The notes under the pieces: generated by a model | Database searches by the model: none | Told to the model about the DNA's origin: nothing | Seen by the model: the letters and a program-made list of their open reading frames with translations, nothing else | Position numbers and translations under genes: made by a program | Part shown: piece after piece, positions 21,504 to 25,183 of the stretch | Layout of the letters: the number at the start of each line of letters is the position of its first letter | Numbering within the stretch: the stretch's first letter is position 1 | Assembly: GCF_017301635.1 (NCBI RefSeq) | Contig: NZ_CP071091.1 | Span: 3,484,001 to 3,548,000, forward strand | DNA from: Myxococcus landrumus | Lineage (GTDB): Bacteria; Myxococcota; Myxococcia; Myxococcales; Myxococcaceae | Length of the DNA: 64,000 nucleotides | Reading direction: 5' to 3'

Positions 21504-22178
21504 CTAGCGGCTGTTCCACCAGACCTTGAACTCGCTCCAGGAGATCCGCCCCGTGTTGTCCGTGTCGACGATGTCGAGGGCGATCTCCAGCTCCTCGTCC
21601 GTGACGTTCTGCCCGAGCGCCTCCAGCAGCCGCGCGAACTCCCCGCGCTCGATGGCGCCGGTCCGGTTGCGGTCATAGCGCTGGAAGATGTCGAGCAGCT
21701 CGTTGCCGGAGCTGGTCAGCTCATCCACCGCCGCGTGCTCGGGGGCGAGGGGCTGGAGGCCCGCGGACGAGGTCTCCACCTGCTCCTCGAACGCAGTGTC
21801 CTCCTCCACTGGCTCCGCCCACGCCACGATGGAGACCTCCACGGGAGCGGGTGTCTCCCGAGGGGGGGACAGCCTGGCGGTGCGTGGCGTGGACGCACTC
21901 GCGGCCTTCTTGCCACCTCGCACGCTGGTGCCGGTCTTCTTCTTCGCGGTGGTGCTCTTGCGAGCCGCGCCCTTCTTCGCGGCGCTCTTGCGAGCTGCTC
22001 CCTTCTTCGCCGGCGAGCTCTTCTTCGCCGAGCCCTTCTTCGCGGCGCTCTTTCGCGTCGCGGGCTTCTTCGCGGTCGCCTTTCGTGCCGCGGACTTCTT
22101 CGTCGCGGGCTTCTTCGCGGTGGAGGCGCGCCGGGATGACTTCTTCGCAGCACTCGACTTGCGTTTCTTCGTCGCCAT
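21504..22178 (-). CDS. Histone H1-like Lys/Ala-rich tail fused to a pair of EF-hands
   Basis: A 224-residue protein with two unlike halves. Residues 1-88 are built of KKSAA, AKKPATKKS and KKGAARKS units, a basic tail of the histone H1/AlgP/HupB type expected to bind DNA. An acidic linker (VEEDTAFEEQVETS) leads to two canonical EF-hands with loops DRNRTGAIERGE (about 169-180) and DTDNTGRISWSE (about 205-216). All six calcium-coordinating positions of both loops are suitable, including the position-12 Glu. I infer a calcium-responsive nucleoid or DNA-binding protein. ATG 22178 is preceded by AGGAGGGG at an ideal distance, which fixes the start. Confidence 0.85.
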   Translation of the reverse strand: MATKKRKSSAAKKSSRRASTAKKPATKKSAARKATAKKPATRKSAAKKGSAKKSSPAKKGAARKSAAKKGAARKSTTAKKKTGTSVRGGKKAASASTPRTARLSPPRETPAPVEVSIVAWAEPVEEDTAFEEQVETSSAGLQPLAPEHAAVDELTSSGNELLDIFQRYDRNRTGAIERGEFARLLEALGQNVTDEELEIALDIVDTDNTGRISWSEFKVWWNSR

Positions 22179-22633
22179 GAGTGAGCCCCTCCTGGGCGGC
22201 GCGCATCGTAGCGCTCTCATGGTGCGGGTCGGCAGTCCCCTGCGTGCAGGTCGCCCTCTGCCCGACCTCCCGCCCCCTCCTCCCCCCACCTGCCCTGCCC
22301 CGCAATACGCCCGCACCCCGTGCCCGCCTGCCCACCGACCTCGACTGCGGGCTTCCCTCTGGAGGGCCTCCCACCGTCCTGGGGACGACATCCACCAGCC
22401 CTCTGGGACACGGTCATGCGTGACCCACCCCCTCCGTTGGCCGATTGATACCCTGGAACGCCGACAGACAAACTGTTAGCAGGCCGAGCGTTGGGTCTTC
22501 CGGAAGCTCCCGGCGTCAAGGCGGTAGCAAGAGGGCCTTCCGCGATGTTCACATGCCATTGCGCGGTGCGAGCAGGGCCGCCCGCGCGCATCCGCGTACA
22601 CCCGCCCGAGCCCCTCAGGACTTCCGCCTCGGA
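22179..22633. promoter_or_regulatory. Divergent intergenic region upstream of the histone-like and RIO kinase genes
   Basis: A 455-base gap with no convincing gene. It holds the 5' regions of two divergent genes, a cytosine-run tract at 22269-22301 and a slightly AT-richer patch at 22440-22485 where the kinase promoter may lie. The frame upstream of the kinase is open back to 22445, but its residues are low in similarity to any domain. Confidence 0.45.
22269..22301 (-). other. Potential G-quadruplex tract upstream of the histone/EF-hand gene
   Basis: On the minus strand there are five G runs of 4, 3, 6, 5 and 3 within 33 bases, separated by 2, 5, 4 and 1 bases. This satisfies the standard four-run quadruplex pattern several times over. 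It lies about 90-125 bases before the ATG on the non-template strand, so it could fold in the DNA or in the leader RNA. Confidence 0.55.
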
Positions 22634-25183
22634 ATGAATGACTCGCTAGAGACCCTCCTCGCCGACGGAATCATCGAGGCCGTTATCGGCCAGTTGAAGA
22701 CGGGAAAGGAGGCGGAGGTGTGGCTTGTCCAGCACGCCGGGCAGGTGGTGGCCGCCAAGCTGTACAAGGAACGCCACGAGCGCAACTTCCGCAACAATGT
22801 GGGCTATCGGGAAGGGCGCGAAGTGCGCAACTCCCGGACCCGCCGCGCCATGGAGAAGGGCAGCCGCTTCGGGCAGGCCGCCGCCGAGGAGGCGTGGAAG
22901 AGCGCCGAATCGGATTCGCTGTACAAGCTGCACGCCCAAGGCGTCCGGGTACCGACGCCGGTGATGTTCTACGAGGGCATCCTCCTGATGGAGGTGGTGG
23001 TCGACGCGGAGGGCCATCCGGCGCCTCGGCTGGTGGAGGCTCCGCCGGCGACCCCCGAGGACGCGCAGACCATGTACCTGGACCTGCGAGCGCAGGTCAT
23101 CAGCATGCTGTGCGCGGACCTCATCCATGGGGACCTGTCGCCGTACAACATCCTGATGAGTTGGGCGGGCCCCACCATCATCGACTTCCCGCAGACCATC
23201 GCCGCCGCGCGCAACAACCGCGCGGAGTTCTACTTCCGTCGAGACCTGGACAACGTGCGCGAGTTCCTGGCGGCGTTCGCGCCATGGCTGCACGGGATGT
23301 CGGGGGACACGGGCGAAATCTGGAGCGCGTATGTGCGGCGTGAGCTCACGCCGGACTTCGTGCCGTCGGGGAACTTCCGTGAGGCGCCTCGCCGGCAGGG
23401 AGGCAAGGGGGCTCGGGATGGGCGTCCGGAGCCACGGCCTCAAGGTGGCCCGCGGCGCGACTTCCGCGCGCAACCCGAAGAGGTGGTCCCCGAGCTGCCC
23501 AAGGCCGCGATGACGCCGGAGGAGGCCGAAGAGGCCGAGCTGCGTGAGCTGGAGGCGTTGGTCCTTCGGCAGGGAGGTGGCGAGCGTGGCAAGCCGCCCG
23601 CGTCTCCTCCGCAGCGAGGTGGGCGCCGGGGTGGAGGTCGTCCTCCTCCGCGACAGGGGAACAACCGGCCCGCGACGCCCGCGGCACAGCGGAGTGGTGC
23701 ACCGTCGGCTTCGCGCAATGGCGCGGCACCGGCGAATGGAGCTCAACGCGGAGCAGCGGCGCATCCGCCTCCTCGGGGTGATGCCCGCAACGGGGGACAA
23801 GGTCCCGCCCAGGGTGAGCAGCGCAACGGCGGTCCGCGTTCCTTCCAGGGTGACGCGCGCAATGGGGGGCAAGGCTCCTCGCAGGGTGATGCGCGCAACG
23901 GCGGTCCTCGCTCCTTCCAGGGCGATGCACGCAACGGGGGTCCTCGCTCCTTCCAGGGCGATGCACGCAATGGGGGGCAAGGCCCCTCGCAGGGCGATGC
24001 ACGCAACGGCGGTCCTCGGTCCTTCCAGGGCGATGCACTCAGCGGGGGGCAAAGTCCATCCCAGGGCGGGCGTCGTGACGGAGGCCCGGGCGCCTTCCAG
24101 GGCGACACGCGCAACGGAGGACAATCCTCCTCGCAGGGTGGGCGTCGCAATGGGGGACCTCGGTCCTTCCAGGGCGATGCACTCAACGGGGGGCAAGCGC
24201 CCTCTCAGGGTGAGCAGCGCAACGGGGGTCCCCGCTCCTTCCAGGGCGATGCGTCCAACGAAGGGCAAGGTCCGTCTCAGGGTGAGCGGCGTAACGGGGG
24301 TCCTCGCTCCTTCCAGGGTGATGCGTCCAACGAAGGACAAGGTCCTTCGCAGGGCGAGCGGCGCAGCGGCGGTCCTCGTTCCTTCCAGGGCGATGCGTCC
24401 AACGAAGGACAAGGTCCTTCGCAGGGCGAGCGGCGCAACGGCGGTCCTCGTTCCTTCCAGGGCGACACTCGCAACGGCGGTCCGCGCGGCTCTCCCCAGG
24501 GCGGGCGCCGCAATGGAGGACCTCGTTCCTTCCAGGGCGATGCACGCAACGATGGAGCAGCGCCCCCGTCGGACAACGCGCACCTTGGTGAGCAGGGTTC
24601 TTACTCGGGCAACGCGCATCCCAGCGAGCAGCACTCGTCCGCGGGCGACTCACGCAATGGAGCCTCGGGGTCCTTCGCCGGTGAGCCGCGCAACAACGGC
24701 CAGCGGTCCTACCAGGGCTCCTCGCGCAACGGCACGCCTCGCTCTGGCCCAGAGGACACTCGCAACGGTTCGCCTCGTCCTCCCATGGGTGGACGTCGCA
24801 ACGAGCGACATGAGCGCCAGGCCAATGGCCAGCCCTCGGAGCAGAACGCCCGCTACGACAACGGCAATGGCGAGCAGGGTGATACCAACGGTTCGGCCCG
24901 GCAGAACGACTCGCGGCCTCCTCGCAACGAGCAGCGCCGAGGAGGCCCCGGCCGAGGAGCACAACCCATCGTCGAGAGCCGTCCCGCCGTCAGCACGGCA
25001 CCGGCCTCCGCTCCGAGTGGCAACGTGATGCGCGAGCCTCGGCAGAACGGCAATGGGGCTCGGCCGCAGCACCCCAACTCGAACCGGGGTGGACCTCGCG
25101 GACCTCGCGGCGGGCCTCAGGTGAGCTACGTGGCTCGCTCCTCCACACCGTCCGACTCGGGGCCCACCGAAACGGGCTCCTGA
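22634..25183 (+). CDS. RIO-family serine kinase with long repetitive Gly/Asn/Gln/Arg-rich tail
   Basis: An 849-residue protein. The first 245 residues form a RIO kinase: GKEAEVWLVQHAGQVVAAKLY (nucleotide loop and Lys), LIHGDLSPYNILM (catalytic Asp and Asn) and IIDFPQT in place of DFG, typical for RIO1-like proteins. RIO kinases act as atypical kinases/ATPases, best known in ribosome maturation. Residues about 250-849 are low complexity: about twenty 12-residue units alternating NGGPRSFQGDAR-like and NGGQGPSQGERR-like sequences, then GNG-rich and PRGPRGGP segments. The tail is basic, disordered in appearance and resembles RNA-binding RGG/prion-like regions. ATG 22634 is chosen because the kinase fold starts at once. 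Confidence 0.85.
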   Translation: MNDSLETLLADGIIEAVIGQLKTGKEAEVWLVQHAGQVVAAKLYKERHERNFRNNVGYREGREVRNSRTRRAMEKGSRFGQAAAEEAWKSAESDSLYKLHAQGVRVPTPVMFYEGILLMEVVVDAEGHPAPRLVEAPPATPEDAQTMYLDLRAQVISMLCADLIHGDLSPYNILMSWAGPTIIDFPQTIAAARNNRAEFYFRRDLDNVREFLAAFAPWLHGMSGDTGEIWSAYVRRELTPDFVPSGNFREAPRRQGGKGARDGRPEPRPQGGPRRDFRAQPEEVVPELPKAAMTPEEAEEAELRELEALVLRQGGGERGKPPASPPQRGGRRGGGRPPPRQGNNRPATPAAQRSGAPSASRNGAAPANGAQRGAAAHPPPRGDARNGGQGPAQGEQRNGGPRSFQGDARNGGQGSSQGDARNGGPRSFQGDARNGGPRSFQGDARNGGQGPSQGDARNGGPRSFQGDALSGGQSPSQGGRRDGGPGAFQGDTRNGGQSSSQGGRRNGGPRSFQGDALNGGQAPSQGEQRNGGPRSFQGDASNEGQGPSQGERRNGGPRSFQGDASNEGQGPSQGERRSGGPRSFQGDASNEGQGPSQGERRNGGPRSFQGDTRNGGPRGSPQGGRRNGGPRSFQGDARNDGAAPPSDNAHLGEQGSYSGNAHPSEQHSSAGDSRNGASGSFAGEPRNNGQRSYQGSSRNGTPRSGPEDTRNGSPRPPMGGRRNERHERQANGQPSEQNARYDNGNGEQGDTNGSARQNDSRPPRNEQRRGGPGRGAQPIVESRPAVSTAPASAPSGNVMREPRQNGNGARPQHPNSNRGGPRGPRGGPQVSYVARSSTPSDSGPTETGS
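23788..24555 (+). repeat. In-frame 36-bp tandem repeats encoding the RIO kinase tail
   Basis: About twenty-one degenerate copies of a 36-bp unit, in two alternating versions giving a 72-bp higher-order period in much of the array. One 34-residue stretch near 24260-24440 repeats the NEGQGPSQGERR-type unit three times nearly unchanged, suggesting recent expansion. One unit carries a 3-bp insertion (GGPRGSPQGGRR). All copies stay in frame. Confidence 0.85.

Follow-up and report, generated by a model that had tools for sequence, protein, structure and literature searches.

A Lys/Ala-rich, histone-like arm joined to a calmodulin-like EF-hand pair in a conserved myxobacterial protein

The window, the whole stretch of 64,000 nucleotides of Myxococcus landrumus DNA that was analysed, carries on the minus strand at 21504-22178 a gene of 224 codons plus a stop. 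ORF calling, Pfam matching and homologue comparison divide the 224-residue product, referred to here as the arm-EF protein, into three parts, all encoded on the minus strand: a Lys/Ala-rich basic arm (residues 1-107; 21858-22178), defined by composition and predicted disorder; an acidic linker (residues 108-151; 21726-21857), defined by composition and alignment; and an EF-hand pair of predicted calmodulin N-lobe fold (residues 152-224; 21507-21725), defined by Pfam and a structure model. The sequence-only reading had noticed a Lys/Ala-rich basic region and an EF-hand pair in one bacterial protein, and this is exact at 21504-22178, where Pfam EF-hand_7 scores 52.9 bits against a curated cut-off of 30 (55.6 bits in the genome search). 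A ribosome-binding site, AGGAGG, lies upstream of the ATG at 22188-22193 on the minus strand, preceded at 22205-22210 by TACGAT, which is conserved upstream of the ATG and is a probable −10 promoter box. An alternative open reading frame of 295 residues in the same frame starts further upstream than this box, and the frame 5' of the ATG varies among homologues; 224 residues is therefore the likely product. The occurrence of homologues in 53 of 96 genomes of the family, together with the low nonsynonymous divergence of the lobe, indicates that the gene is real. With a maximum 19-residue Kyte-Doolittle mean of 0.34 and no hydrophobic stretch, the protein shows no sign of export.

The first 92 residues of the arm comprise 28 lysines, 8 arginines and 23 alanines with no Asp or Glu, and the arm as a whole (residues 1-107) has a net charge of +39, acidic residues being absent. 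It is encoded by imperfect tandem repeats of 15-45 bases. This stretch had been described as a basic tail of about 88 residues; the Lys/Ala-rich stretch is real, but it lies at the N-terminus and does not form a C-terminal tail. AlphaFold2, supplied with 14 sequences (the window's protein and 13 named loci), returned pLDDT values of 40-53 per ten-residue block for residues 1-150; the arm is thus predicted to be disordered, which accounts for the low mean of 59.7 over the whole chain. The linker has a net charge of −10 and keeps the motifs VET[ST]SAG and LAPxHAAVD[ED]LTS in the 11 long-form rows of a 14-row alignment. All 70 loci compared, encoding 50 distinct proteins, have a basic N-terminal start, as did all 45 loci of an earlier set. 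Of 38 distinct proteins, 37 were measured, with arms of 40 to 138 residues and net charges of +11 to +45; the arm of the remaining one, L031, which lacks the scripted EF pattern, was read by eye, and the figure for L008 includes ten surplus residues. Sequence and length have drifted but composition has not, which fits an electrostatic arm. The window's protein falls below the cut-offs of the Hc2 models PF07382 (32.3 bits against 40) and NF038052 (26.7 against 135) and of the Burkholderia-type H1-like model NF038053, hist_H1_lk_Burk (36.9 against 80); its homologue in genome G023 reaches 52.0 bits with PF07382. The arm resembles histone H1 tails, Hc2 and AlgP in composition only.

The EF-hand pair, with a net charge of −8, is predicted to fold as two helix-loop-helix hands with paired short strands (helices 152-168, 178-187, 194-204 and 214-223; strands 175-177 and 211-213), at a pLDDT of 62 for residues 151-160 and 81-90 from residue 161 onward. 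Foldseek and VIA-align comparisons were informative for the lobe and uninformative on residues 1-148. The nearest structures to the lobe model are the calmodulin N-lobe and troponin C; it superimposes on the former, 3uct_B, with a Z of 13.5 (1.1 Å over 72 residues, 28% identity), a value that small helical models may reach by chance, although sequence and fold matches agree. A phmmer search returned troponin C at an E of about 3e-17 and calmodulin at 3e-14, the best summed score being that of the multi-hand EFCAB6 (5.3e-25). Searching the 10.4-Mb genome of the window with PF13499 (E up to 0.001) gave one EF-hand pair, that of the arm-EF protein, and none beyond it; the same model matched in 1 of 14 named control genomes. 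The short model PF13202 had no match in the window's genome, missing the arm-EF protein itself as well.

Across 38 sequences the lobe alignment has 18 invariant columns, and the lobe residues F10, W59, F62, W65 and W66 are invariant in all 38 distinct proteins. In 12 closely related pairs, dN is 0-0.056 for the lobe and 0.028-0.286 for the arm. The lobe value is below that of the arm in 12 of 12 pairs and is the lowest of the three parts in 11, the exception being L005/L007, where the linker is lower. For L001/L064, lobe dN (0.032) is near dS (0.044), so constraint on the lobe is unclear in that pair. In L025/L026, which have lost the position-12 ligand from both loops, lobe dN is still 0.006 at a dS of 0.248.

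Both calcium-binding loops of the window's protein, loop 1 (DRNRTGAIERGE, residues 169-180, 21639-21674, minus strand) and loop 2 (DTDNTGRISWSE, residues 205-216, 21531-21566, minus strand), were placed by their ligand pattern and carry D1, N/D3, T5, E/S9 and E12; positions 1, 3, 5, 9 and 12 of each 12-residue loop are complete, as the sequence-only reading had stated. Position 5 is Thr in both loops, a residue less usual there than Asp, Ser or Asn. Among 50 distinct homologues, D1 is kept in both loops without exception, while position 12 varies: in loop 1 it is Glu in 47 and Gly in 3, and in loop 2 it is Glu in 33, Gln in 12, Ala in 4 and Lys in 1. Homologues lacking EF-hand ligands had been named in advance as a result that would count against calcium control, and such homologues do exist, the acid being gone from loop 2 only in 14 of the 50 and from both loops in 3; the other 33 have it in both, as do the window's protein and the relatives closest to it, L063, L064 and L017. 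On the tree found, built from 117 columns with both position-12 residues masked and with many forks open, loop 2 requires at least 4 changes at position 12 and loop 1 at least 2; if well-supported branches alone are counted, no more than 1 to 2 are forced. E12 is present in both loops of all 15 short-form proteins, and its loss would thus be derived should the tree be rooted among the short forms. Changing E12 to Gln cripples calcium binding by an EF-hand, and the structure search with the lobe listed a PDB entry titled as a calmodulin E32Q/E68Q mutant. The position-12 losses in 17 of 50 homologues indicate that several lineages can do without calcium binding. Judged by the ligands, the window's protein and the 33 homologues with E12 in both loops could plausibly be under calcium control.

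The sequence-only reading had suggested looking for the fusion in other myxobacteria. A profile of the lobe matches in the 53 genomes mentioned above, which fall in 10 of the 26 genera scanned (some single-genome genera being incomplete), and every one of the loci examined has the basic arm. All 27 genomes of the window's genus match, and the well-sampled genera g26 (0 of 16), g8 (0 of 6) and g12 (0 of 4) have no match. No match came from 16 of the 26 genera, so the arm-EF protein is not shared by the whole family as a chromosome component. The RIO locus was searched on one side, over some 5 kb, in three genomes of g26 and one of g12, and shows no remnant of the fusion there. The 50 distinct proteins fall into 15 short forms (115-178 residues) and 35 long forms (197-255 residues). 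A scan with short exact peptide patterns, a method suited to close relatives, gave 14 loci, each under a myxobacterial title; plasmids gave no match, and PHROGs none at E up to 0.001. Across the phylum, with at most 30 candidates scored per genome, 55 of 195 genomes match, and two of these lie outside the family; open frames were read for 5 of the 8 stretches fetched. One of the two, G108, has a weak match in a frame with several hands. The other, G189, which belongs to a distant family of the phylum, has two open frames of 85 and 116 residues (L078 and L079) with an EF-hand pair and the same WW ending; one has a short basic leader, neither has a Lys/Ala arm, and they are possible relatives of the lobe before fusion. 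Two genomes of genus g16 encode four-EF-hand calmodulin-like proteins (L080 in G053, L081 in G072) that are separate from the arm-EF fusion.

Lys/Ala-rich arms are found elsewhere in these bacteria. The HC2 model has matches in 10 of the 12 family genomes inspected and in 1 of 14 control genomes. Within the family but outside the window's genus, it rises above its cut-off in frames of L090 and L100, which we take to be an Obg-like GTPase, and of L092, presumably a valyl-tRNA synthetase-like frame. Since the model also passes on such frames, a match to it here reports composition; the same loci suggest that Lys/Ala arms have been added to several core proteins in the family. Genome G036 (genus g5) has 52 HC2 matches against 0 to 7 in 11 other genomes, and for many of these chance composition is likely because some lie in open frames with internal stops. 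The window's own genome, G000, also encodes an arm-only protein, a Lys/Ala-rich, lobe-less chain of 64 residues (L106:1202-1396, near C1:8393095) with no Pfam match at E up to 0.01; two further genomes that lack the fusion have such proteins as well (L097, L098). The arm-only gene adjoins an NFACT gene at 10 of the 16 loci examined, the window's own genome included. The idea that this gene substitutes for the fusion in genera without it was rejected, since both coexist in 7 of 16 genomes (G000, G023, G056, G038, G014, G017 and G024); five have the fusion without an arm-only gene at NFACT (G018, whose NFACT match is partial, G036, G013, G040 and G001), three the arm-only gene without the fusion (G062, G029 and G008) and one neither (G010). 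Lys/Ala arms are thus a common tool in these bacteria, and what sets this protein apart is that the arm is fused to an EF-hand lobe.

The sequence TACGATG is present upstream of all 35 long-form homologues (24 of 24 aligned in a smaller set), rows that are related and hence not independent; TACGAT is found upstream of none of the 15 short-form homologues. It looks like a sigma-70-type −10 box, so that the arm-EF gene is probably transcribed from its own promoter, and its retention amid several unrelated neighbourhoods suggests that the gene functions on its own. Divergent from it in the window lies a RIO-domain kinase gene (22634-25180), with a long C-terminal tail derived from 36/72-base tandem repeats at 23768-24551 (units such as NGGPRSFQGDA) that may be a disordered tail of RNA-binding type. 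Both a histidine kinase and the RIO kinase flank the gene at 6 of 7 named Myxococcus/Pyxidicoccus loci (L002-L005, L007 and L011; L006, which starts at the edge of its contig, has just the kinase) and at most short loci of the window's genus. Within flanks of about 1.5 kb, L050 and L053 have neither kinase, and L056 and L067 the histidine kinase only. The RIO neighbour was seen only at loci of the window's genus and of the named Myxococcus/Pyxidicoccus. At seven loci elsewhere, L008 and L009 have one downstream gene in common and L012-L015 have other neighbours in common, no neighbour being common to all seven. Inference of an operon or a partner from these neighbours was dropped, as they change between groups and none is constant. 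The link to motility and development drawn in the sequence-only reading finds no support in the gene context examined.

Each half of the protein has known relatives. The lobe is like those of calmodulin and troponin C (PF13499) in fold and loops, and differs in being bacterial, in consisting of one lobe only fused to a polycationic arm, and in having a degenerate loop 2, or two degenerate loops, in 17 of 50 homologues. Proteins of the Hc2 and hist_H1_lk_Burk families have a Lys/Ala-rich, variable-length arm of short repeats like that of the window's protein, and to our knowledge they are without EF-hands. The length of Hc2 is reported to vary by lysine-rich pentamers (PMC2848022). AlgP and PhaF of Pseudomonas likewise join a disordered H1-like arm to a folded domain. 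AlgP, whose arm is rich in Lys, Pro and Ala, is reported to sit on polyphosphate granules, and the arm to bind DNA and to position and space the granules (PMC9239181). Their layout is different, a helical N-terminal domain being followed by C-terminal KPAA repeats, whereas the window's protein has an N-terminal arm and an EF-hand pair, and KPAA is absent from all 224 of its residues. CSE of filamentous cyanobacteria and other small bacterial EF-hand proteins, compared here by description only, have no histone-like arm mentioned in the portions available. The arm of CarD of Myxococcus xanthus is HMGA-like, and CarD differs from the window's protein in its RNA-polymerase-binding domain; CarD_CdnL_TRCF is absent among the nine Pfam matches of the latter at E up to 1. 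As a myxobacterial protein with a eukaryote-like DNA-binding arm, CarD nevertheless offers a parallel (PMC4374960). Nucleic-acid binding and two EF-hands also meet in the nucleobindins NUCB1/2 (PMC10093973, PMC8361300); these are animal proteins, and the EF-hands of Nucb2 are split by an acidic stretch and accompanied by a leucine zipper, while the hands of the window's protein form an adjacent pair. Both halves are thus already known, and no title or abstract listed in searches of an open-access library describes their conserved union in bacteria; the statement that the fusion has no described counterpart holds within those listings.

On this basis we propose, with a probability of roughly 0.45, that the arm-EF protein may be a cytoplasmic polyanion binder whose lobe docks a partner, with calcium acting as a modulator in most homologues, the protein of the window's species among them; polyanion binding, calcium binding and the coupling of the two are all inferred from sequence features. 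The polycationic arm, predicted to be disordered, would bind some polyanion of the cell. Nucleoid DNA is the likeliest candidate and RNA the next. The arm would thereby bring the EF-hand pair, which resembles the calmodulin N-lobe, to that polyanion, with the acidic linker and the lobe lying beside the arm. The invariant hydrophobics (the F of helix 1 and ISWxxFxxWW of the second hand) would hold either a partner or the protein's own arm. Where the ligands remain, a rise in calcium would open the lobe and lower its negative charge, and these changes would alter release of the arm or recruitment of the partner; in lineages that have lost the ligands, docking would have survived while the switch was abandoned. 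Calcium is cast as a modulator atop a more constant docking role because the key ligand has been lost from loop 2 in several lineages and from both loops in two. The calcium-controlled nucleoid protein suggested at the outset thus keeps its plausibility for calcium where E12 is retained, but not DNA as the settled target, since Lys/Ala arms on the Obg-like GTPase and the tRNA-synthetase-like frame make RNA as much a candidate; the arm of AlgP speaks for a nucleoid role by analogy only. In a more specific version, the protein would be of chromatin type and carry its own calmodulin-like switch, by which cytosolic calcium in myxobacteria directly sets the hold of the H1-like arm on chromosome or RNA, the switch having been dismantled more than once in sister lineages; this is conceivable, and we regard it as doubtful.

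Other arrangements would account for parts of these data. If the lobe were a constitutive docking module, as are other EF-hand lobes that have lost calcium binding, with the arm tethering the partner to nucleic acid independently of calcium, then repeated loss of the position-12 acid on the tree found (17 of 50 in loop 2, 3 of 50 in loop 1), the five hydrophobic residues invariant in 38 of 38 proteins and the continued constraint on the ligand-less lobes of L025/L026 would fit; a pure scaffold, however, needs neither an acidic position 12 in loop 1 of 47 of 50 homologues nor D1 in both loops of all 50, and the window's protein and its nearest relatives retain both ligands, which leads us to consider such an adaptor rather unlikely. 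A factor of RNA or the ribosome, whose arm binds rRNA or tRNA while the lobe regulates or recruits a translation-related partner, is suggested by the Lys/Ala stretches in the Obg-like (L090, L100) and valyl-tRNA synthetase-like (L092) frames, by the arm-only gene beside NFACT at 10 of 16 loci and by the RIO-domain kinase gene next door. Neighbourhood is weak evidence, though, the RIO neighbour having been seen only in the window's genus and the named Myxococcus/Pyxidicoccus, and the fused protein carries nothing RNA-specific, so this role appears unlikely. The arm might instead link polyphosphate or polyhydroxyalkanoate granules to the nucleoid, with the lobe sensing polyphosphate-bound calcium, on the model of AlgP and PhaF; AlgP, with its K/P/A-rich disordered arm, occupies and spaces polyphosphate granules (PMC9239181); given that the AlgP arm is C-terminal, built of KPAA repeats and attached to a helical domain, and that the window's arm is N-terminal and free of KPAA, we think a granule tether very improbable. 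That the arm alone matters, the lobe decaying or merely buffering calcium, would fit the ligand losses in 17 of 50 homologues and the lobe-less 64-residue protein of the same genome, yet in 11 of 12 pairs no other part has a dN as low as the lobe's, which is below that of the arm in all 12, and the 18 invariant columns kept in 38 sequences speak against decay; this is the least credible of these explanations.

The polyanion-binding, calcium-modulated docking protein proposed here would bear on a process for which few intracellular targets are recognised, and those debated: calcium action inside bacteria. The sole PF13499 EF-hand pair in the 10.4-Mb genome of the window (E up to 0.001) sits on a histone-like arm. 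The arm-only protein of the same genome and the relatives without ligands, which would be calcium-blind if the switch is true, are natural controls for such a function. If calcium changes the protein's grip on nucleic acid, it would constitute a direct link from calcium to the nucleoid, or to RNA, in a bacterium with a multicellular life cycle.
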